Below are positions 39,919 to 52,300 of a stretch of 64,000 nucleotides of DNA, piece by piece. The notes below the pieces were generated by a model that ran no database searches, was not told where the DNA came from, and saw only the letters and a list, made by a program, of their open reading frames with translations. Both the position numbers and the translations under genes were made by a program. The DNA is taken from positions 1-64,000 of the forward strand of contig JAJZAN010000001.1 in the NCBI GenBank assembly GCA_021799435.1, written 5' to 3'. The DNA is from Bacillota bacterium. Lineage in GTDB: Bacteria; Bacillota; Sulfobacillia; Sulfobacillales; Sulfobacillaceae. Numbering within the stretch: position 1 is the first letter of the stretch; the number at the start of each line of letters is the position of its first letter.

Positions 39919-39952
39919 ATGTTCCCCCTGCCTCACCACACTCGAGGTTTAA

Positions 39953-39977
39953 CAAAAGAGCGGGGGATGCCCGCTCT
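39953..39977 (-). terminator. Terminator-like hairpin between rpsO and pnp
   Basis: Minus-strand AGAGCGGG-CATCC-CCCGCTCT is followed by TTTTGTTAA. The stem starts inside the rpsO stop codon. It probably gives partial termination and sets the rpsO:pnp ratio. Confidence 0.72.
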
Positions 39978-40245
39978 ATCGACGTAACCCAAGCCGTTTG
40001 ATCACCGCGTGGTAGCGCTCGTTATCTTTGTCTTTCAGATAGTTGAGTAGTGCGCGGCGATGCCCTACCATCTTCAACAACCCACGACGGGAGTGATGGT
40101 CCTTCTTGTGTGTTTTCAGGTGCTCGGTGAGTTCGGTAATGCGTTCCGTCAAGAGCGCAATTTGAACCTCCGGCGACCCCGTGTCCGATTCATGCAGCCG
40201 GTAAGCCGCAATGATGGCCTGCTTCTTGTCTTCTTCCAGGGCCAT
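39976..40245 (-). CDS. rpsO: 30S ribosomal protein S15
   Basis: 89 residues, exact family length. Contains the [13 protein letters not shown] and [25 protein letters not shown]-type core (abbreviated) that binds the 16S central domain. ATG 40245 is preferred over ATG 40251 because GGAGGT is then 6 nt upstream. Confidence 0.97.
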
Positions 40246-42328: not shown

Positions 42329-43307
42329 CAGCTTCCGGTGCCAATTCCCGGCGTACCGCCTCGGCCACCTCATCTAATACCCCGGTCACAACTGCCGCTC
42401 CCGCGTACTCATGTCCTCCCCCACCGAAGCGAGCCGCCAGCTCCGCAGCGTTCCATGGGGACCGGCCCCGCCAACTGACCTTGACATGCTGGCCATCTGC
42501 GCTTTCGCGCGCCAGAAAGGCCACTTCAACGCTCTCCACACTCATCAGATGATGCACAACCGTATCAACCCCTGCGTCATCAACGGCATACTCTTCCATG
42601 GCTGTCCTGGGTACCCTCAGCCAGGCAAAGCGCCCATCTGCACTAAAAGTCACGTGGCCAAACGCCCAGCCTAGAAACCGCAGCTCGCACGCCGAGCGAC
42701 TATCCCAGATTTTTCGATTGACATCGGCCAGATCCATGCCCGACTCCTGAACCAGCCAATGGACCGTATCGAGGGTTTGAGGCGCGGTGTTGACCTGCCG
42801 GAATGACAAGGTGTCTGTACTGATAGCAGTATAAAGGCCCACAGCCTCATCGGCCGTGATGCCCCAGCCCGCCTCTCGAATCAACTCGCCAACCATTTCC
42901 CCGGTCGAACTCATGTGACTCTCGACCCAGTTAATGGTGCCGAATTGGGGGTTTTTGCTATGGTGGTCAATATTAATGAGCGGAATGTGATGCAAAGAAC
43001 AATGAGTCCAGAGGGCCTCAGGAGCGCCCATTCGGGAAGCCGCACCGCAATCGACAGCGACCACCGTGTCAAAATCGTCGAGGGCCACCTTGTTCCAGGT
43101 GCGCACGGAAGCAATCTCGGGCAAAAATCCCAGCCGTGCCGGGACCTGGTCCGCCACGACCCAAGTCACGGAACGGCCCAACCGCCGAAGAGCCAGCCCC
43201 AAAGCCACAGCCGATCCAGCACTGTCGCCATCCGGACTGGCGTGCATCACAATCAGCACCCGGCGGGCTTGTTCCAACGCGGATAGCACCGCGGATTTAG
43301 GTGTCAT
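42321..43307 (-). CDS. nrnA: DHH-family nanoRNase / pAp phosphatase
   Basis: 328 residues. DHH motifs ASPDGDS, DCGAASR and NIDHHSKN, then a DHHA1 domain with GGGGHEYAGA. It degrades 2-5-nt RNAs and 3'-phosphoadenosine 5'-phosphate, and related proteins hydrolyse pApA/c-di-AMP products. ATG 43307 is chosen for its spacing to AAGGA; an ATG at 43316 touches that site. It overlaps rbfA by 11 nt. Confidence 0.92.
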   Translation of the reverse strand: MTPKSAVLSALEQARRVLIVMHASPDGDSAGSAVALGLALRRLGRSVTWVVADQVPARLGFLPEIASVRTWNKVALDDFDTVVAVDCGAASRMGAPEALWTHCSLHHIPLINIDHHSKNPQFGTINWVESHMSSTGEMVGELIREAGWGITADEAVGLYTAISTDTLSFRQVNTAPQTLDTVHWLVQESGMDLADVNRKIWDSRSACELRFLGWAFGHVTFSADGRFAWLRVPRTAMEEYAVDDAGVDTVVHHLMSVESVEVAFLARESADGQHVKVSWRGRSPWNAAELAARFGGGGHEYAGAAVVTGVLDEVAEAVRRELAPEADE

Positions 43308-43656
43308 GGCCGCCATCCTTGGGCAAGGACCGCATCAAGTTTTGAATGTGCATCGATTCCGCTATCCCCGAGTCCTCGCGAAAGATCAATTCCGGAGCCT
43401 TTCGGAGGCCCAGCCGCCGCGCCACTTCGCCCCGAAGGAATCCAGCGGCCTTTTTCAATCCGGCGAGGCTCGCTTCCCGCTCCTCGGCTTGTCCCATCAC
43501 GCTGACAAAGGCGCGCGCGATGCTCAGATCGCGCGACACCTCCACCCGCGTAACACTGACGAATCCTATTCTAGGGTCCTTCACTTCCGTGAGCAGCATC
43601 TGCCCTAACTCTCGCTGCATCAACTGTGCGACCCGTTCCGCCCGAGACTGGTTCAT
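43297..43656 (-). CDS. rbfA: Ribosome-binding factor A
   Basis: 119 residues, KH-like fold, needed for 30S maturation and cold growth. N-terminal RAERVAQLMQRELGQMLLTEVKDPR and the VSVTRVEVSRDLS strand are typical. AGAGGG precedes the ATG. Standard position after infB. Confidence 0.94.
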   Translation of the reverse strand: MNQSRAERVAQLMQRELGQMLLTEVKDPRIGFVSVTRVEVSRDLSIARAFVSVMGQAEEREASLAGLKKAAGFLRGEVARRLGLRKAPELIFREDSGIAESMHIQNLMRSLPKDGGHDT

Positions 43657-43668
43657 GGCAATCCCTCT

Positions 43669-46326
43669 TTAGCTCGCTTTAACTTCTTCCTGCGTGTAGA
43701 CCTCGAAGATGTCCCCCACTTTAATGTCGTTGAACTTCTCGAGGCCTATTCCACACTCGTAGCCGCTGGCGACTTCGCGGACATCATCCTTGAAGCGCTT
43801 CAGCGATGCGATGCCACCCTCGTGAATGACCGCGCCGTCGCGGATCACCCGGACTTGACCAGAGCGCAGAATCTTGCCCTCTGTGACGTAGCAACCGCCC
43901 ACCGCTCCGACTTTAGGAACCCGAAAGACCTCACGCACTTCGGCGCGACCCAAGAACAGTTCTTGGAACTTGGGAGCCAAAAGACCCGTCAAGGCCTGTT
44001 TGACGTCATCCAAAACCTCATAAATAATCCGGTACTGACGGACGTCGACATGCTCCCGTTCCGCCAACTGCCGAGCTTTGGACTCGATACCGACGCCGAA
44101 GCCAATGATGATAGCCCCGGAGGCCTGAGCCAGCATCACGTCAGACTCTGTGACCGACCCCACTCCGGTGTGCAGTACCCGCACCCGAACCTCCTCGTTG
44201 GAGAGTTTGGCCACGGATTGGGCCAACGCTTCCGCCGATCCATGCACGTCGGCCTTGATCACCAAGTTCAAATCACGCATCGCTTCGTCCTTCAGGCGCT
44301 GGTAAAATTCGTCCAGCGATACGCCCCGGTTGCCGACCTCAGTGGACGCCCGGGTGCGGCTGGCGCGAGCATCGGCGATGCTCTTGGCTTGCCGCTCGTC
44401 TTCCAAAATGACGAAGTCGTCGCCCGCTTCAGGTAGTTGGTTGAAACCCAAGACCTCAACCGGCATCGATGGGCCGACTTCCTTGACCCGCTCGCCCCGG
44501 TCGTTGATAAGCGCCCGCACCCGTCCATACACGGCACCCGACAGGAAGACGTCTCCTACGTGCAACGTTCCGCGGTTGACCAGAACCGTTGCCACAGGAC
44601 CCCGACCCCGGTCCAACTGCGCCTCAATGATGGTCCCGGATGCACTGCGACTGGGGTTCGCCTTCAACTCCATAATGTCCGCCTGCAACAACAGAGCCTC
44701 CAGCAACTTGTCGATTCCTTCCCCGGTCCGGGCCGAGACCGGCACCATAATGGTGTCACCGCCCCATTCCTCCGAGACCAGTCCATATTCCGTCAAGTCG
44801 GTCCGGACGCGGTCGGCGGTGGCTTCCGGCAAGTCAATCTTGTTGATGGCGACCACGATGGGCACATTGGCCGCCTTGGCGTGGTTGATGGCCTCAATGG
44901 TCTGCGGCATCACGCCGTCATTGGCCGCTACCACCAAGACCGCAATATCCGTGACTTGCGCCCCTCGAGCGCGCATGGCTGTGAAAGCTTCGTGACCGGG
45001 GGTATCCAAAAACACCACCGACCGGCCTTGCCATTCGATTACCGACGCACCAATGTGCTGCGTGATTCCACCAGCCTCGCTGGCCGTCACACGGGACGAT
45101 CGAATTTTGTCCAACAGCGAGGTCTTGCCGTGGTCCACGTGGCCCATTACCGTGACCACCGGGGGACGCTCCTCCAGCTCGTGCTCCTGGTCTTCCTCAC
45201 CTTGGATTAAAATCTCCTCGCGCTCCTCAACCGAGGCGCGCTCTTCAACTTCCGCTCCCAGTTCCTGGGCGACAATGACGGCGGTTTCCTTATCAATCTC
45301 GTTGTTGACGCCAACCATGACACCCAAAGCAATGAGCCGCTTAATCAGATCCGTCGCCTTGGCGCCCAATTGCTCCGCCAAGTCCTTTACGATGATCGGA
45401 CCGCTAATAACCACTCGGCGCTGTACAGGCGGCATCTGCGCTTCCGCGTGATGCTGTTGACTCTTGTGTCCTTTCTTGCGCCGATTGCCAAAGTCCCGAT
45501 CGTCCATCCAGTTGCGATTGCCGCGCCGACCCTCAAATGTGTTGGTGGTCCGCTTGTCGCGGAAATTGTTGTTGGTGGTGCGGCGGTTCTGGTCCTTGCC
45601 CGGCCGCGCCGTCGTGGTCGACGGCGGCGGCGGAACGACCAAGGGCCTGTTGCCGCCCCGGTTCGGGGCACCGCCACCCGGCCTGCCGCCGGCGCCTGCT
45701 GGGCGGGGCGGGCCGCCCGGACGCGGGGCACCGCCTGGGCGGGGGGCACCGCCTGGGCGGGGTGCTCCGCCCGGCCGCGGGCCTGCGTTGTTGTATCCCG
45801 GACGCGGTCCGGAAGACGGCCGTTGCTGGCCTCCGCCCATGGGACGCGCGCCCGGAGGACCGCTGCGACGCGGATCCTCGCTGCGAGGTCCCGACGAGTT
45901 GGGATACCGTGACCCAGCCCCGCCCTGAGGGCGCGGATTGCCGGGCTGATAGGGTCGACCCGTGGGACCAGGGCCATGGCCAGACGAATTGTACGGTCGT
46001 GCGTTACTCCGATCGGCGGGGGTCGTCCGGTCGGCGGCGGGGGGCCGATTTTCGGGGTTCGCGGGCCGCGGCGGGGCGGGATGCGCCGTCGGAGGCGCGC
46101 TGGGCCGCGCCGGTGCGGGTTTCGGCTCCGGCTTGGGTTCTGGCGGCAGCTTCCCCTCCATGATGTCGCGCACTGTCTTCACGGCCTCCGGCTCCACGGT
46201 GCTCATGTGGTTTTTGATGTTTTCGACCTTGAGTCGGTGCAGCAGATCGATGAGTCGCCGACTGTCCAGTTTGAGTTCCTTGGCCAGTTCGTAAACCCTG
46301 ACTTTGTCCTTGTCTTTTTCTGTCAA
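43669..46326 (-). CDS. infB: Translation initiation factor IF-2
   Basis: 885 residues. N-terminal IF2N helical domain ([21 protein letters not shown]), a long Pro/Arg/Gly-rich linker with 18-bp tandem repeats, a second IF2N-like segment, then the G domain with [16 protein letters not shown] and NKID, and the C-terminal domains that bind fMet-tRNA. Start TTG 46326 follows GGGGGG by 7 nt. The ribosome site and the first ~100 codons lie inside the reading frame of ylxQ as sequenced. Confidence 0.95.
45722..45775. repeat. 18-bp tandem repeats within infB linker
   Basis: Three near-identical 18-bp units encode R-P-G-G-A-P hexapeptides in the IF-2 linker, with further degenerate units on both sides. 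Such GC-rich repeats expand and contract readily. Confidence 0.8.
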
Positions 46327-46645
46327 AACTAATCCCCCCTGAGCTTTTTCGCATCTCCTCGAGAATTCGAGCGCCAAACTTTTCATCCAATATCGCAAGC
46401 ACCGCGTGCGGCCCCATCCCGATGGCGTGACCGAGCTCCGCCTTGGATCCGATGCGCACAACGGGTACGCCCAAGTCCTGGGCCCACAAGTGATACTTGC
46501 GGTATAGCGATGGTCCAGCGTCTTCGGCCAACACCAGCAGCCGAGCCTCCTCGCGTTTCATCGCCAAACTGGCCTGGTTTTCGCCTGGAGCGACTTTCCC
46601 GGCTTTCTTGGCCAGCCCCAATAAGTTAGTCCATCGTTCACTCAT
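46004..46645 (-). CDS. ylxQ: YlxQ, L7Ae-like ribosome-associated protein (frame runs on into infB)
   Basis: The first ~104 residues are a complete L7Ae/L30e-type RNA-binding protein (LLGLAKKAGKVAPGENQ ... GHAIGMGPHAVLAILDEKFG), the size of Bacillus YlxQ. As sequenced the frame does not stop there but continues 320 nt into infB as a Gln/Arg/Ala-rich shadow. One extra G in the six-G run at 46334-46339 would give a TAG two codons later and a normal protein ending near 46331. The long C-terminus is therefore suspect. ATG overlaps the ylxR stop (ATGA). Confidence 0.8.
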   Translation of the reverse strand: MSERWTNLLGLAKKAGKVAPGENQASLAMKREEARLLVLAEDAGPSLYRKYHLWAQDLGVPVVRIGSKAELGHAIGMGPHAVLAILDEKFGARILEEMRKSSGGISFDRKRQGQSQGLRTGQGTQTGQSATHRSAAPTQGRKHQKPHEHRGAGGREDSARHHGGEAAARTQAGAETRTGAAQRASDGASRPAAAREPRKSAPRRRPDDPRRSE

Positions 46646-46911
46646 GCACTGGTCCCATCCAATCGGCGCAGTTCCTCGACCAGTTCGTCTGTCAGCGGCA
46701 CCTCCAGTGCCCGCTCTAGACGGTGAGTCTTCAGCGCCTTTTCCACACAGTCGGCCGCCGGACACAAATAGGCTCCACGGCCTGACACTTTGCCGCGCCG
46801 GTCCACCAGCAACTGCCCGTCAACCGTCCGCACCACCCGGACCAATTCACGCTTGGAGCGGGTCGTCATGCAGGCTACGCAGGTGCGCATGGGCACTTTG
46901 CGTACGGTCAT
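46642..46911 (-). CDS. ylxR: YlxR / RNase P modulator RnpM
   Basis: 89 residues: VPMRTCVACMTTRSKREL (the C-x2-C-containing YlxR signature) and GRGAYLCP. The family binds the RNase P RNA and nucleoid. GGAGG is 9 nt before ATG 46911, which overlaps the nusA stop by 4 nt. Confidence 0.92.
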   Translation of the reverse strand: MTVRKVPMRTCVACMTTRSKRELVRVVRTVDGQLLVDRRGKVSGRGAYLCPAADCVEKALKTHRLERALEVPLTDELVEELRRLDGTSA

Positions 46912-47960
46912 GACCAAAATCCTCCCCGATCCATCTGCGACTCGGAACGCAGGTCAACGCGCCATCCGGTCAATTTGGCGGCCAGCCGCGCGTTTTGACC
47001 CTCCTTGCCAATCCCCAGCGACAGCTGGTTGTCCGGCACAATGGCACGCGCTGAACGCGTTGTCTCGTCAATCTCCACCTCCGTCACATGAGCTGGCGAC
47101 AAGGCGTTGGACACAAACACCGCGGGGTCGGGATCCCACGCAATAATATCGAGCTTTTCACCCTTCAACTCGTTAACAATAGCTTGAACCCGTTGACCCT
47201 TGGCACCCACACAAGCACCCACCGGATCCACGTTCGGGTCTTCTGCCCACACCGCAATCTTGGTGCGCGCACCAGCTTCCCGAGCCACGCCGCGAATTTC
47301 CACCACGCCGTCATGAATTTCCGGCACTTCCAATTCGAACAGTCGACGAATCAATCCAGGATGACTGCGGGATAAATAGACCTGCGGGCCTTTCGTGGTC
47401 TTCTTGACTTCCACCACGTAGAGCTTCACACGCTCATTGGGGCGCAGAATCTCCCCCGGCACTTGCTCACTGGGCATCAAAATAGCCTCTGTGCGACCCA
47501 AATCAATAAAAACCAGGCCGCGCTCGACGCGTTGCACCATCCCCGTCACAATGTCGCCTTCGCGCCCCGAGTATTCGTCATAGATCATGCCGCGCTCGGC
47601 TTCGCGAATGCGTTGCACAATGACCTGCTTGGCAGTCTGAGCCGCAATCCGGCCAAAATTCTTGGGGGTGATTTCAAACTCAACGATGTCGCCCTCAGCA
47701 GCTCCAGGCTGAACCTCGCGAGCCTCGTCGGCGCTGACTTCGAGACGATGGTCCTCCACGTTCGCCACCACGGTCTTTTGTGCAAAAACCTCGGTCGCAC
47801 CGGTTTCACGGTTAATTTGTACCCGCACATTCTGCGCTGATCCAAAATTGCGGCGATACGCAGAAATTAAGGCTGACTCAATGGCCTGAAACAGGACCTC
47901 CTTGTCAACCCCTTTTTCACGCTCTAAATCTTCGAGCGCGACCATCAACTCGCTGTTCAT
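46908..47960 (-). CDS. nusA: Transcription termination/antitermination factor NusA
   Basis: 350 residues, the short Gram-positive form: NusA N-terminal domain (NSELMVALEDLEREKGVDKE), S1, then two KH domains (GACVGAKGQRVQAI; SLGIGKEGQNARLAAKL). No C-terminal acidic repeats. AAGGGGG precedes ATG 47960. The usual upstream gene rimP is absent. A promoter and a leader terminator hairpin lie upstream, where NusA itself could act. Confidence 0.95.
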   Translation of the reverse strand: MNSELMVALEDLEREKGVDKEVLFQAIESALISAYRRNFGSAQNVRVQINRETGATEVFAQKTVVANVEDHRLEVSADEAREVQPGAAEGDIVEFEITPKNFGRIAAQTAKQVIVQRIREAERGMIYDEYSGREGDIVTGMVQRVERGLVFIDLGRTEAILMPSEQVPGEILRPNERVKLYVVEVKKTTKGPQVYLSRSHPGLIRRLFELEVPEIHDGVVEIRGVAREAGARTKIAVWAEDPNVDPVGACVGAKGQRVQAIVNELKGEKLDIIAWDPDPAVFVSNALSPAHVTEVEIDETTRSARAIVPDNQLSLGIGKEGQNARLAAKLTGWRVDLRSESQMDRGGFWS

Positions 47961-48001
47961 CCGCCGAATCCCCCTTAAACCGTCGTCAGCCCTTGTCAAG
48001 C

Positions 48002-48029
48002 GAAAAGAGTGGGCTCAAGCTCCCCACTC
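48002..48029 (-). terminator. Intrinsic terminator hairpin in the nusA leader
   Basis: Minus-strand GAGTGGG, 9-nt loop, CCCACTC, then TTTTCG. It lies between the promoter at 48087-48115 and nusA, so it is either an attenuator of the nusA operon or the end of MFS/polC transcripts. Confidence 0.65.
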
Positions 48030-48086
48030 CGAGTCACCGACTAGACTCCCAGTCTCGGGCCCATAAAGCCCTTCATCCTACGGATT

Positions 48087-48115
48087 ATCATACCATAACG
48101 ACAGTCTGCTCACAA
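48087..48115 (-). promoter_or_regulatory. Sigma-A promoter of the nusA operon
   Basis: TTGTGA (48110-48115), 17 nt, TATGAT (48087-48092) on the minus strand. The -35 overlaps the MFS stop codon. Predicted leader is about 120 nt. Confidence 0.7.
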
Positions 48116-49300
48116 CTTCTGGGAATCGGGTCGCCATGGTTTCCAAATCACCGCGGCGCCGATGGTCGTGACCATCAGCACGGCTGCTCCCAAGATAAAC
48201 GGGTGATTGGGATGCCCGACGAGCAAGGGGCCGCTGGCCAAAGCCAGCACCGCCGCTCCCAAGGTTCCGCTGGCCTGGAACCAGCCTTGCACCGCCCCGT
48301 GGAGGTCCTCCGGCGCGCGGGTCATCACGGAAGCCGAGAGCGCCGGGCCGATAAGGCTCATAGCGGCTGCTTCCAGCACCGAAACCCAAATCGAAAGCCA
48401 CGCCGACCGCGAGATGACATAAAAGCCCACTGTCAATGTCTCCAGAGCCAGCCCCGCCACCATCAATCCGCGCCGCCCCGCTCGATCGGCGGCTCTCCCC
48501 CCGAACAGTTGCAGCAACAGCAAAGGGCCGCTAAACAACGTAAAGGATAGCCCAATCACCCATTTGCTGGCCCCTAAATACTGCATGTAGAGACTCCATG
48601 CGGTGTCGTACATGCCGGTCAGCCCCATCCAGGCAAACATCACCCAGAAATATGGCCACAACGTACCCAGCAGCGGCCTTACAGTGTGTGCCGCCAAGCG
48701 TTGGCGCTGAACTTTTGGCCGTCCTGCCGGCAGCAGCAGCAGGCTCACCAGAGTTGCCGCGGCATTGAGTCCCACCCCAATGGCAAACGGTGCGGACAGT
48801 CCCCACGCGGCGCCCGCCAATCCCCCCAGCATCGGCCCGACCGCGAATCCGGCGCTGCCCGCGGCCCCCATAAGGCCATAGGCTCGGCCGCGGCGCTCTT
48901 CCGGCACCAAATCCGCCACCAGGGCGTTGGCGGCGGGCACCACCGCCGCGCTCCCCAAACCCTGCAAAATGCGGCAGAGAATGTACCACCACGGCGCCGC
49001 ATGGACCAAAAATCCCGCCGTTCCCAAAGATTCCAGCACGCCCCCGGCGACCATGAAAAACTTCCGGCCCCAGCGGTCAGCGAGCGGCCCTGCTCCCATC
49101 TGCCCAAGAAAAGAAACGGCCGCATAGGCCGCCGCCATCGCCCCCATGTCCGCCAAAGGGAATCCCCGATGCCGAACAAATTGCGGCAAAAGCGGCAAGA
49201 TGGCGCCAAACCCGCTTTGAACAATAAAGTTGGTGGCCAGGACGGTCCACAGGGCGGAGCTGTAGCGCTCGGCAGGTTGCCCAGTTCTTGAACTCGCCAT
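48110..49300 (-). CDS. MFS transporter (DHA1 drug/sugar exporter type)
   Basis: 396 residues with twelve hydrophobic helices. Motif A GPLADRWGRK (71-80) lies between helices 2 and 3, and GRAADRAGRRG is the matching motif between helices 8 and 9. Substrate unknown; multidrug-type efflux is the common role. ATG shares a base with the polC TAA (TAATG), so it is translated after polC. It occupies the place where rimP normally sits. Confidence 0.88.
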   Translation of the reverse strand: MASSRTGQPAERYSSALWTVLATNFIVQSGFGAILPLLPQFVRHRGFPLADMGAMAAAYAAVSFLGQMGAGPLADRWGRKFFMVAGGVLESLGTAGFLVHAAPWWYILCRILQGLGSAAVVPAANALVADLVPEERRGRAYGLMGAAGSAGFAVGPMLGGLAGAAWGLSAPFAIGVGLNAAATLVSLLLLPAGRPKVQRQRLAAHTVRPLLGTLWPYFWVMFAWMGLTGMYDTAWSLYMQYLGASKWVIGLSFTLFSGPLLLLQLFGGRAADRAGRRGLMVAGLALETLTVGFYVISRSAWLSIWVSVLEAAAMSLIGPALSASVMTRAPEDLHGAVQGWFQASGTLGAAVLALASGPLLVGHPNHPFILGAAVLMVTTIGAAVIWKPWRPDSQKL

Positions 49301-52300
49301 TAAAAAAACCCGAGTTGGCTTGTCTCGCCCAAATCCTTCAGGGCTCCATGCTTGCGCAAAAGTTCCACCACACTCTTCGATATACGGGCCCGCTGACGCA
49401 GATCATCAATAGACAAGAACGGCTGCTCTTGACGCGCCTCAATGATATGCTGGGCGGCGTTCACGCCCAAGCCCGGCAGCGCCGCAAACGGGATAGTGAG
49501 ACCGTCCTGCTCAATGAGAAACTGGGTAGCGTGGGACCGCTCCAAGTCGATGGCGTGAAAGCGAAATCCGCGCGCCAGCATCTCCCGCGCCACTTCGAGC
49601 ACGGTGACCAAATTCTTCTCCTTGGCACTGGCCTCGTTGCCCTTCTCCTCGATGGCAGCCAAGGCTTGGTTGACCCTTTTAGTCCCGCCCAGCACCGCAT
49701 CCGCTTCGAAATCCCCGGCCCGCACGGAGAAGTAGGTGGCGTAATAAGCCAGCGGATGGTGAACCTTGAACCAGGCAATTCGCCATCCCATCATCACGTA
49801 CGCGGCGGCGTGCGCCTTGGGAAACAGATAACTGATGCGACGACACGACTCAATGTACCAGCCCGGCACCCCATGCTCCCGCATCAGGGCCTCCTGGTCG
49901 TCTTTCAAGCCCTTGCCTTTGCGCACCGCCTCGGAGATGGCAAACGCCGTCTTAGGCGCAATCTCCCGGCTGAGAAGATAGGTCATGATATCGTCGCGTG
50001 TGGCGATCACATCCGACAGGGTCGCCGTCTTTTGACGGATAAGTTCCTGCGCGTTGTTAGTCCACACCTCGGTACCGTGCGAGAGACCCGAAATACGCAC
50101 CAATTCGGCGAAGGTCCGCGGCCGAGTGTCCACCAACATCTGGCGTACAAAGCGGGTGCCAAATTCAGGTATGCCCAAACTGCCCACCGGCGTGCCCACA
50201 TCTTCAGGCTTGAGCCCCAGTGCCTTGACATCGCTGAACAGGCTCATCGTCGCCTCATCCTGAAACGGCACCTCTTTGGCGGGAATGTGAGTGAGGTCTT
50301 CCAGCATGCGAATGGCCGTCGGATCATCGTGCCCTAAGAGGTCGAGCTTCAACAGCCGGCCCTCGATGGAATGGTAATCGAAGTGGGTGGTGACCACATC
50401 GGAGTTTTTGTCGTCGGCGGGCCGTTGCACCGGGGTGAAGTGATGAATGTCCTCGTTTTGCGGCACGACCATCAGCCCGCCCGGATGCTGCCCCGTCGTG
50501 CGCTTGACCCCAGTTATGCCGGAGGCGAGCCAATCCACCTCGGCAGGCGAGGGTTCCCGACCGGTCTCACGAGCCCAGGCCTTCACCAGCCCGAAGGCAG
50601 TCTTTTCAGCCACGGTCGCAATGGTGCCAGCGCGAAATACATGCCCTTGACCAAACAACACTTCGGTATAGCGGTGGATCTCCGGCTGATATTCGCCCGA
50701 GAAGTTCAAGTCGATATCGGGTACTTTGTCGCCCTCAAACCCTAAAAACGTTTCGAAAGGAATGTCCTGCCCGTCGCCAATCAGGGACGCGCCACAGGCG
50801 GGGCATGTCTTCGTCGGCAGGTCAAATCCCGAACCCACGTCGCTCACAAACTCCGTGTAACGACATCCCGGACAGCGGTAGTGCGGCGGCAGCGGATTGA
50901 CCTCGGTAATATTCAACAAGGTAGCAACCAATGAGGATCCGACCGAACCGCGGGAACCCACCAGATACCCGTCATCGAGCGACTTCTGCACCAGCCGATG
51001 GGCGATGTAATAGATACTGGAAAACCCATTGGAGACAATCGAGTGGACCTCTTTCTGCAGACGTGCCTCCACGATGTCCGGCAGCGGGTCGCCGTACAGG
51101 CTCCGGGCCTGGCTGTAGGGTACCTCCGAGACAACCTGCTCGGCTTCCGGCAAATTAGGCGAGAAGAGACCGCTGGGTACGGGCTGCACCGGCTCGATCT
51201 GATCCACCACGGCCTCCGGAGCCTCGTAGATGACCCATTCGCGATCACGAGCGTCGAGAAAGCTCAGCTCTCCCTCCATCTCCACAGCGGTCCGCAAGTA
51301 GAGGTCATCCAAGCGGTTGTGCAGCTCCCCCTTGGCTGTGGCGGCCAAAATGTCGCGATACACCCGATGGTCAGGACGGAGATAGTGCGCATCGGACACT
51401 GCCGCAACCCACTTGTGGGATTTGCGGCCCCAATGGATAATGTCCTGGATATAATGCTGCACCGCTTCTTCTCCGTCCAGGAACCCATCATCCATCATCC
51501 CGGCGGCCGCTGCCGGCGGCACCACTTCCCAATAATCATAAAACGAGGCCAGCGCCTCGAGATCGGCGTCGGATGCTCCACGGAACACGGCCTCGGCGAT
51601 CTCGCCCTCATGAAACGGCGATCCCACCAGCCACCCGTCCCGGCCTTCGGCAATGAGTCGACGGGGCACCCGCGGCACACGATGGTAATAGGTGAGGTGC
51701 GATTCAGACACCAGCCGATACAGAGCCGAAACCCCGGTCGGATTCTTCACCAACAGCGTCACGGGTGTGGGACGACCGACACTGTGCGGTACGGGCAGGG
51801 CACGGCCTGGGGTTAGTGGACCATGCATCTCGGCACACTCCTCGAGCAGCCGCAGGGCCAGCCGAGCCGTGGCCTCCGCGTCGGCCAACGCCCGGTGGTG
51901 CTGAGTCAAGGAAATTTTAAAATGGTCGGTTAGGGGCCCCAGTCCATGGCTTTTCATGTGCGGCAACACCGCCCGGGCCAGCGCCAAAGTATCCAGCACC
52001 AACGGGTCAAACGAGACATCCGGATAAATCTGGCGATGTCCCCGGCCCAGAAATCCCATATCGAAGCGAGCATTGTGAGCAGCCAGCACCGCGCCCTCGG
52101 CAAATGTCCAAAAGTCCTGCCACATCTCGGATTCCGAGACACCGTCCTGGAGCTCCTCGTCGCGGATCCCCGTAATCCGCCGCGTAGAGCTGGAGATGGT
52201 GCGGGTGGGGCGCACCAGGCGGTGGAAAGTCTCCACAATCTCGCCCCCCACCACCTTGACTGCTCCGAGTTCGATGACCTGATGCGAGCGCGGACTTAAA

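Follow-up and report, generated by a model that had tools for sequence, protein, structure and literature searches.

Introduction

The window, a 64,000-nt stretch of a Bacillota genome (GCA_021799435.1, contig JAJZAN010000001.1) from the order of Sulfobacillus (Sulfobacillales), contains a nusA operon that begins with nusA itself, behind a leader with a terminator hairpin. The locus raises the question of where this leader comes from, what became of rimP, and which protein reads the leader in a genome that has no RimP.

Results

Anatomy of the nusA leader

On the minus strand the genes run in the order proS, glycosyltransferase, polC, MFS transporter, leader, nusA, ylxR, L7Ae-like gene, infB and rbfA (Table 1), where proS, the L7Ae-like gene and infB (IF2) are what we take these frames to be. 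The initial annotation had described a promoter, a leader of ~120 nt between promoter and nusA, and a 7-bp hairpin followed by TTTT, and each of these elements lies where it had been placed. Transcription is predicted to start at ~48080 on the minus strand. Within the window genome the promoter match is at chance level, with 1 seen against 1.0 expected in 46000–50000. The hairpin has an energy of −11.2 kcal/mol, its U-run is separated from the nusA ATG by 42 nt, and its pattern occurs at a single place in the 3.97-Mb genome, the reversed-pattern control occurring at none. A general terminator scan of the window, which allowed loops of up to 8 nt, did not list this hairpin, probably because its 9-nt loop exceeds that limit.

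Table 1 Features of the nusA leader and neighbouring genes in the window.
Feature	Position	Strand	Remark
MFS transporter	48110..49300	-	Upstream of leader; outside rimP slot
Promoter, TTGTGA / 17-nt spacer / TATGAT	48087..48115	-	-35 at 48115-48110, -10 at 48092-48087; TG precedes -10; spans MFS stop codon
Short leader RNA, ~78-82 nt	48003..48080	-	Predicted if termination occurs at the U-run, from promoter and terminator positions
Terminator hairpin, GAGTGGG-GAGCTTGAG-CCCACTC	48007..48029	-	7-bp stem, 9-nt loop GAGCTTGAG
U-run TTTT, then CGCT	48003..48006	-	Sequence; distal part interrupted
Post-terminator element TCGCTTGACAAGGGC	47989..48003	-	15 nt; conserved
Shine-Dalgarno of nusA, AAGGGGG	47970..47976	-	Sequence
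nusA (NusA_N, S1, KH_5)	46908..47960	-	350 aa; first gene behind leader; ATG at 47960
ylxR	46642..46917	-	Family match
infB (IF2)	43669..46461	-	Open frame; true start probably inside
rbfA	43297..43656	-	Family match

Folding of the leader, a check proposed in the initial annotation, gave no signal: the entire leader folds no better than shuffled sequences (z = −0.59; 53 of 200 shuffles equal or exceed its stability), and the case for it therefore rests on sequence conservation and not on stability. A search of the whole window against Rfam returned no match at gathering score and so does not place the leader among riboswitches, T-boxes or ribosomal-protein leaders; the sole match when 47900–48150 was searched (sR4, E = 3) is at chance level. 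At the upstream end of the MFS gene, its start codon and the polC stop share one base (49298–49302), and because of this overlap the two are probably translated jointly.

The hairpin is conserved throughout the order

When the leaders of relatives were compared, the stem GAGTGGG/CCCACTC with at least TTT behind it proved unchanged in all 40 genomes of the order with nusA, in a search that required the exact stem followed by a minimum of two or three T and that none of the nusA-bearing genomes failed. The pattern is present in 40 of the 42 order genomes, at one place in each and always before nusA, and the reversed pattern is found in none of the 42; the two genomes without the hairpin are 59% and 61% complete and are without a nusA match as well. 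From the hairpin end to the start of the NusA profile match there are 53–120 nt in all 40.

Identity across the order is 0.76, 0.85 and 0.38 at nusA codon positions 1, 2 and 3, 0.53 in the hairpin loop and 0.39 in the 60 nt upstream, and the longest run of fully invariant columns in the nusA N-terminus is 2, in an alignment selected on the hairpin pattern. Seventeen positions of the leader are constant across 15 genera and three families while adjacent sites vary freely, so that we give almost no credence to the view that the leader is a functionless relic, kept by chance or as a spacer after rimP was lost. Loop length ranges from 5 to 13 nt, which breaks the frame of a small ORF across the hairpin; this candidate was rejected.

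A scan of the 150 nt that precede the hairpin (maximum score 13, TG counted) finds a promoter-like site scoring at least 9 in 29 of the 40 genomes against 1.9 expected from shuffles, these being related genomes and not 29 independent cases. Its distance from the hairpin is 51–89 nt in 28 of the 29 and 117 nt in one; 11 genomes score below 9, two of them without any consensus promoter. Downstream, the U-run of the Sulfobacillus family (f1) carries a distal interruption, reading UUUUCGCU in 30 of 32 family sequences and UUUCUGCU in the other two. The 20-mer CCCACTCTTTTCGCTTGACA is found in 21 stretches among 84,980 species genomes, a search that may leave out records near the window's genome, and all 21 were matched by eye to family f1; NCBI places Sulfobacillus under Clostridia.

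rimP is absent from the order

The initial annotation had noted that rimP is missing, and had suggested looking for it elsewhere in the genome. RimP_N (PF02576) is found in none of the 42 order genomes and in 17 of 19 other genomes of the class; of the two class genomes without it, one has a contig that begins 193 nt before the nusA match (G053) and the other a weak NusA match under the cut-off (G055). A class-specific, full-length RimP profile yields nothing credible in the order either: it matches in 8 of 42 genomes, always at chance level (E = 0.03–0.98), and the best match covers 52 of 158 positions within a 586-codon frame. RimM, used as a positive control, turns up in 40 of 42. By both profiles rimP is absent from the window genome, which is 90% complete, including the slot between leader and nusA, and the observation of the initial annotation thus extends to the whole order. 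An assembly error as the cause is excluded, since G011, G022, G027, G031 and G035, each assembled in one to three contigs, share the rimP-less arrangement of leader and nusA.

It is very improbable that a RimP too divergent for detection is present and still acts as sensor. Two genomes of the class, G047 and G384, do give weak RimP matches (E = 4e-10 and 2e-8), but the gap between leader and nusA leaves no room for the gene, and the class profile stays at chance in genomes where the RimM control succeeds. These comparisons suggest that the order lost rimP at its base and retained the leader.

The initial annotation had also read the MFS gene as filling the rimP position, and here it needs correction, as the rimP slot runs from the leader to nusA and the MFS gene lies upstream of the leader. 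It is directly upstream in only 21 of 40 order genomes, all of family f1, with polC seen before it in 20 of the 21 (the contig of G028 is too short). In 8 of the 40, among them 5 of the 8 order genomes outside f1, polC runs straight into the leader, ending 107–206 nt before the hairpin without an intervening MFS gene. In the remaining 11 different genes stand there, the MFS match is weak (G038, G039), the MFS gene is displaced (G013) or the contig is too short. Most likely the MFS gene arrived upstream and is not a replacement for rimP.

The leader matches the rimP leaders of the class

Elsewhere in the class, all 17 genomes in which rimP was found have the hairpin before rimP, and in none of 18 does it lie within 200 nt before nusA; rimP occupies the space between leader and nusA. 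Six of the seven stem pairs are invariant in these 17 rimP leaders; the seventh is G-C in 13, A-U in 2 and G-U in 2. A covariance model built solely from the 17 has the nusA leader as its best match in the window (22.8 bits, E = 6.9e-5), followed by the rpsO terminator (14.8 bits) and a match of 13.8 bits, and at all 39 other loci of the order it recovers the leader, with E from 4.8e-7 to 3.7e-3. The separate promoter and the attenuator-type leader proposed in the initial annotation are supported. The rpsO terminator, AGAGCGGG-CATCC-CCCGCTCT-TTT at 39946–39982 on the minus strand, looks like an ordinary terminator.

In a phylum sample of 348 genomes, 335 have RimP and 267 carry the exact hairpin pattern, against ~48 for the control (by eye); the exact stem is missing in the other 81, some whole families included (by eye, the pattern is in 0 of 6 genomes of f36 and 1 of 13 of f41). 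At least 75 sites were listed, of which 49 were usable; 4 lie elsewhere than at rimP, and three of these 4 belong to genomes that also have a site at rimP. Where a listed site could be compared with the position of rimP, the hairpin lies 40–265 nt upstream of rimP in 45 of 46 genomes, and the single exception has a second site outside the listed matches. The rimP leader of G214, GGAGTGGCACGCCACTCC, has the stem changed to GAGTGGC/GCCACTC with pairing kept. By these sequence comparisons, the window leader is the known rimP-leader attenuator, which appears to have been inherited from a rimP-bearing ancestor.

A simpler account would be that the hairpin merely ends the proS–polC–MFS unit and that nusA starts from another site downstream. 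The hairpin is palindromic and stands between two units, and TTGACA follows right after it, as such an account would have it. No −10 is seen 17 nt from TTGACA by eye, however, and we rejected a promoter there; most order genomes have a promoter-like site ahead of the hairpin, the class genomes carry the same hairpin before rimP, and sequence variation would be expected of an ordinary terminator. We regard this account as improbable.

rimP has been lost in other lineages

Thirteen of the 348 phylum-sample genomes are without RimP, three of them in this order. In genus g123 of another class, a lineage found via G154, rimP is found in 0 of 3 genomes (98%, 71% and 84% complete), compared with 15 of 17 among the other members of its family, and the hairpin stands straight before nusA in all three, which points to an independent loss of rimP with the leader kept. 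Genus g48 (family f35; G069, G191 and G292) has rimP in none of its three genomes, and the GAGTGGG hairpin is also absent from them; nusA is preceded by what we take to be an MgtC/SapB-like gene, and the sister genome G214 still has rimP. Because g48 has neither rimP nor the hairpin, nusA can do without the hairpin. The leader has thus outlived rimP in two of three assessable lineages.

In G308, 473 nt separate the leader from nusA and contain no clear rimP frame, and rimP there may be decayed or very divergent; its congeners are G047 and G384, which gave the weak RimP matches. G280, G282, G295, G356 and G386 were excluded from the counts, their nusA match being none, weak or cut at a contig end; in G386 the hairpin pattern does occur, on a contig that lacks a NusA match.

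Sequences around the terminator

Past the terminator, TCGCTTGACANGGGC is present in 25 of 42 order genomes, at one place in each and always right after the hairpin. All of these genomes belong to family f1, and the reversed control occurs at 1 place in the 42. The family alignment demonstrates no constant pairing partner for TCGCTTGACANGGGC, and it is not recognisable as a promoter. Two stems were considered and neither is claimed. CUUGA past the terminator pairs with UUAAG or GUUAG by the Shine-Dalgarno in ~15 of 26 distinct family sequences (fold, by eye), and the alignment consensus gives another four-pair stem, GCUU with GGGC, whose energy is equalled by 1 of 200 column shuffles and whose covariation term is near zero.

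Upstream of the terminator, the alternative fold GAGTC...GACTC proposed in the initial annotation does not hold across relatives, being exact in just 4 of 40 order genomes. Pairing of at least six pairs between the upstream 71 nt and either terminator arm is no commoner than in shuffles, being found in 9 of 40 genomes, against 41% of shuffles, for one arm and in 4 of 40, against 14%, for the other. A stem of at least five pairs ending beside the terminator stem is slightly commoner than expected (16 of 40 against 10.7). No antiterminator thus stands out above chance.

Discussion

Relation to known leaders

Naville and Gautheret described the rimP-leader in 2010 (PMC2965389). By that description it has a G-rich 5′ arm and a C-rich 3′ arm (GGGc...gCCC) and a U-run, in the 5′ UTR of the nusA-infB operon, 4–130 nt before the first gene and with no visible antiterminator. 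The Sulfobacillus leader has this core in GAGTGGG/CCCACTC-TTTT, with g in place of the inner lower-case c, it has the same operon and a spacing within the range, and it likewise has no conserved antiterminator. It differs in its first gene, which is nusA and not rimP, and in the 15-nt element past the terminator, found in family f1 only. The leader is best described as a rimP-less variant and not a full member: the kind of attenuator is already known, and the rimP-less arrangement before nusA is what varies.

NusA autoregulation in B. subtilis was reportedly described by Mondal et al. in 2016, and in E. coli metY and rimP lie upstream of nusA. In the accounts cited here, B. subtilis NusA autoregulates by NusA-stimulated intrinsic termination in a 5′ leader (PMC12288461), a short leader RNA in S. 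agalactiae suggests NusA-stimulated termination (PMC4448216), NusA-dependent terminators have a U-run with distal interruption (PMC8060035), and E. coli NusA lowers expression of its own metY-nusA-infB operon (PMC4448216, PMC2965389). The locus studied here shares with B. subtilis an intrinsic terminator in the 5′ leader of a nusA-containing operon, and would share with E. coli the feedback of NusA on its own operon that we propose; it has the interrupted U-run in the f1 sequences, and the putative upstream promoter and terminator within the leader expected of a NusA-autoregulated attenuator. It differs from B. subtilis, where rimP (ylxS) is given as the first gene (PMC2965389).

A model for control of the operon

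We think it likely that the nusA operon is limited by NusA-stimulated early termination at the retained rimP-leader. The promoter at 48115–48087 would start transcription of the operon, and RNA polymerase would soon reach an intrinsic terminator whose hairpin is modest and whose U-run is short and interrupted. With NusA plentiful, it would help the hairpin to stop transcription, leaving an RNA of ~80 nt; with NusA scarce, polymerase would read through into nusA, ylxR, infB and rbfA. The lack of an antiterminator fits titration by NusA, because titration needs none, and together with the short interrupted U-run and the upstream promoter-like site it fits NusA-stimulated termination. The anatomy of the leader, its conservation, its likeness to the rimP leaders of the class and the absence of rimP are observed, promoter use and termination are proposed, and so is NusA as effector, an effect reported for B. 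subtilis. NusA is the likely limiter of its own operon, as the initial annotation had suggested.

According to its description, NusA is the best candidate regulator of the rimP-leader and RimP a possibility, and the conserved stem argues for a protein that reads the motif (PMC2965389). RimP cannot be the sensor in this order, because rimP is absent while the leader stays, and the rimP-less lineages strike it from the candidates unless it acts only where present. Leader retention excludes RimP here, but leaves room for a different sensor, such as YlxR or YlxQ.

Another product of the operon (YlxR, the L7Ae-like YlxQ, or IF2) could bind the stem-loop and promote or block termination. The stem is conserved in sequence, beyond pairing, which suggests specific recognition, and ylxR is present in the operon. 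To our knowledge Gammaproteobacteria are without ylxR and ylxQ. The leader is nevertheless reported from them (PMC2965389), which counts against either product as sensor. Also against such a sensor, B. subtilis NusA is said in the cited accounts to inhibit the ylxS promoter (PMC6504816, citing Mondal et al. 2016) and to autoregulate by leader termination (PMC12288461). We consider such a sensor unlikely.

A narrower form of the NusA model, which we put forward tentatively and hold to be doubtful, is that polymerase-bound NusA reads the stem by sequence and shape, with or without rimP, and that TCGCTTGACANGGGC, added in the Sulfobacillus family, tunes pausing or nusA translation. Some three quarters of the sampled Bacillota genomes keep all 14 stem bases. 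Reading by sequence becomes less likely because the exact stem is missing from the rest of that sample and one relative pairs with a changed stem.

RimP is reported to be conserved in over 90% outside CPR (PMC12641178) and to occur in few Mollicutes (PMC4014445), and our searches found no literature on RimP in Sulfobacillus. The present cases document RimP loss in bacteria with near-complete genomes of 2.6–5 Mb. As to the regulator, the 2010 description of the rimP-leader left RimP versus NusA open (PMC2965389). As rimP is gone from a whole order and, separately, from one genus with the leader kept, RimP is not a necessary sensor, and the rimP-less leader offers a clean natural system in which to ask what recognises this conserved stem.
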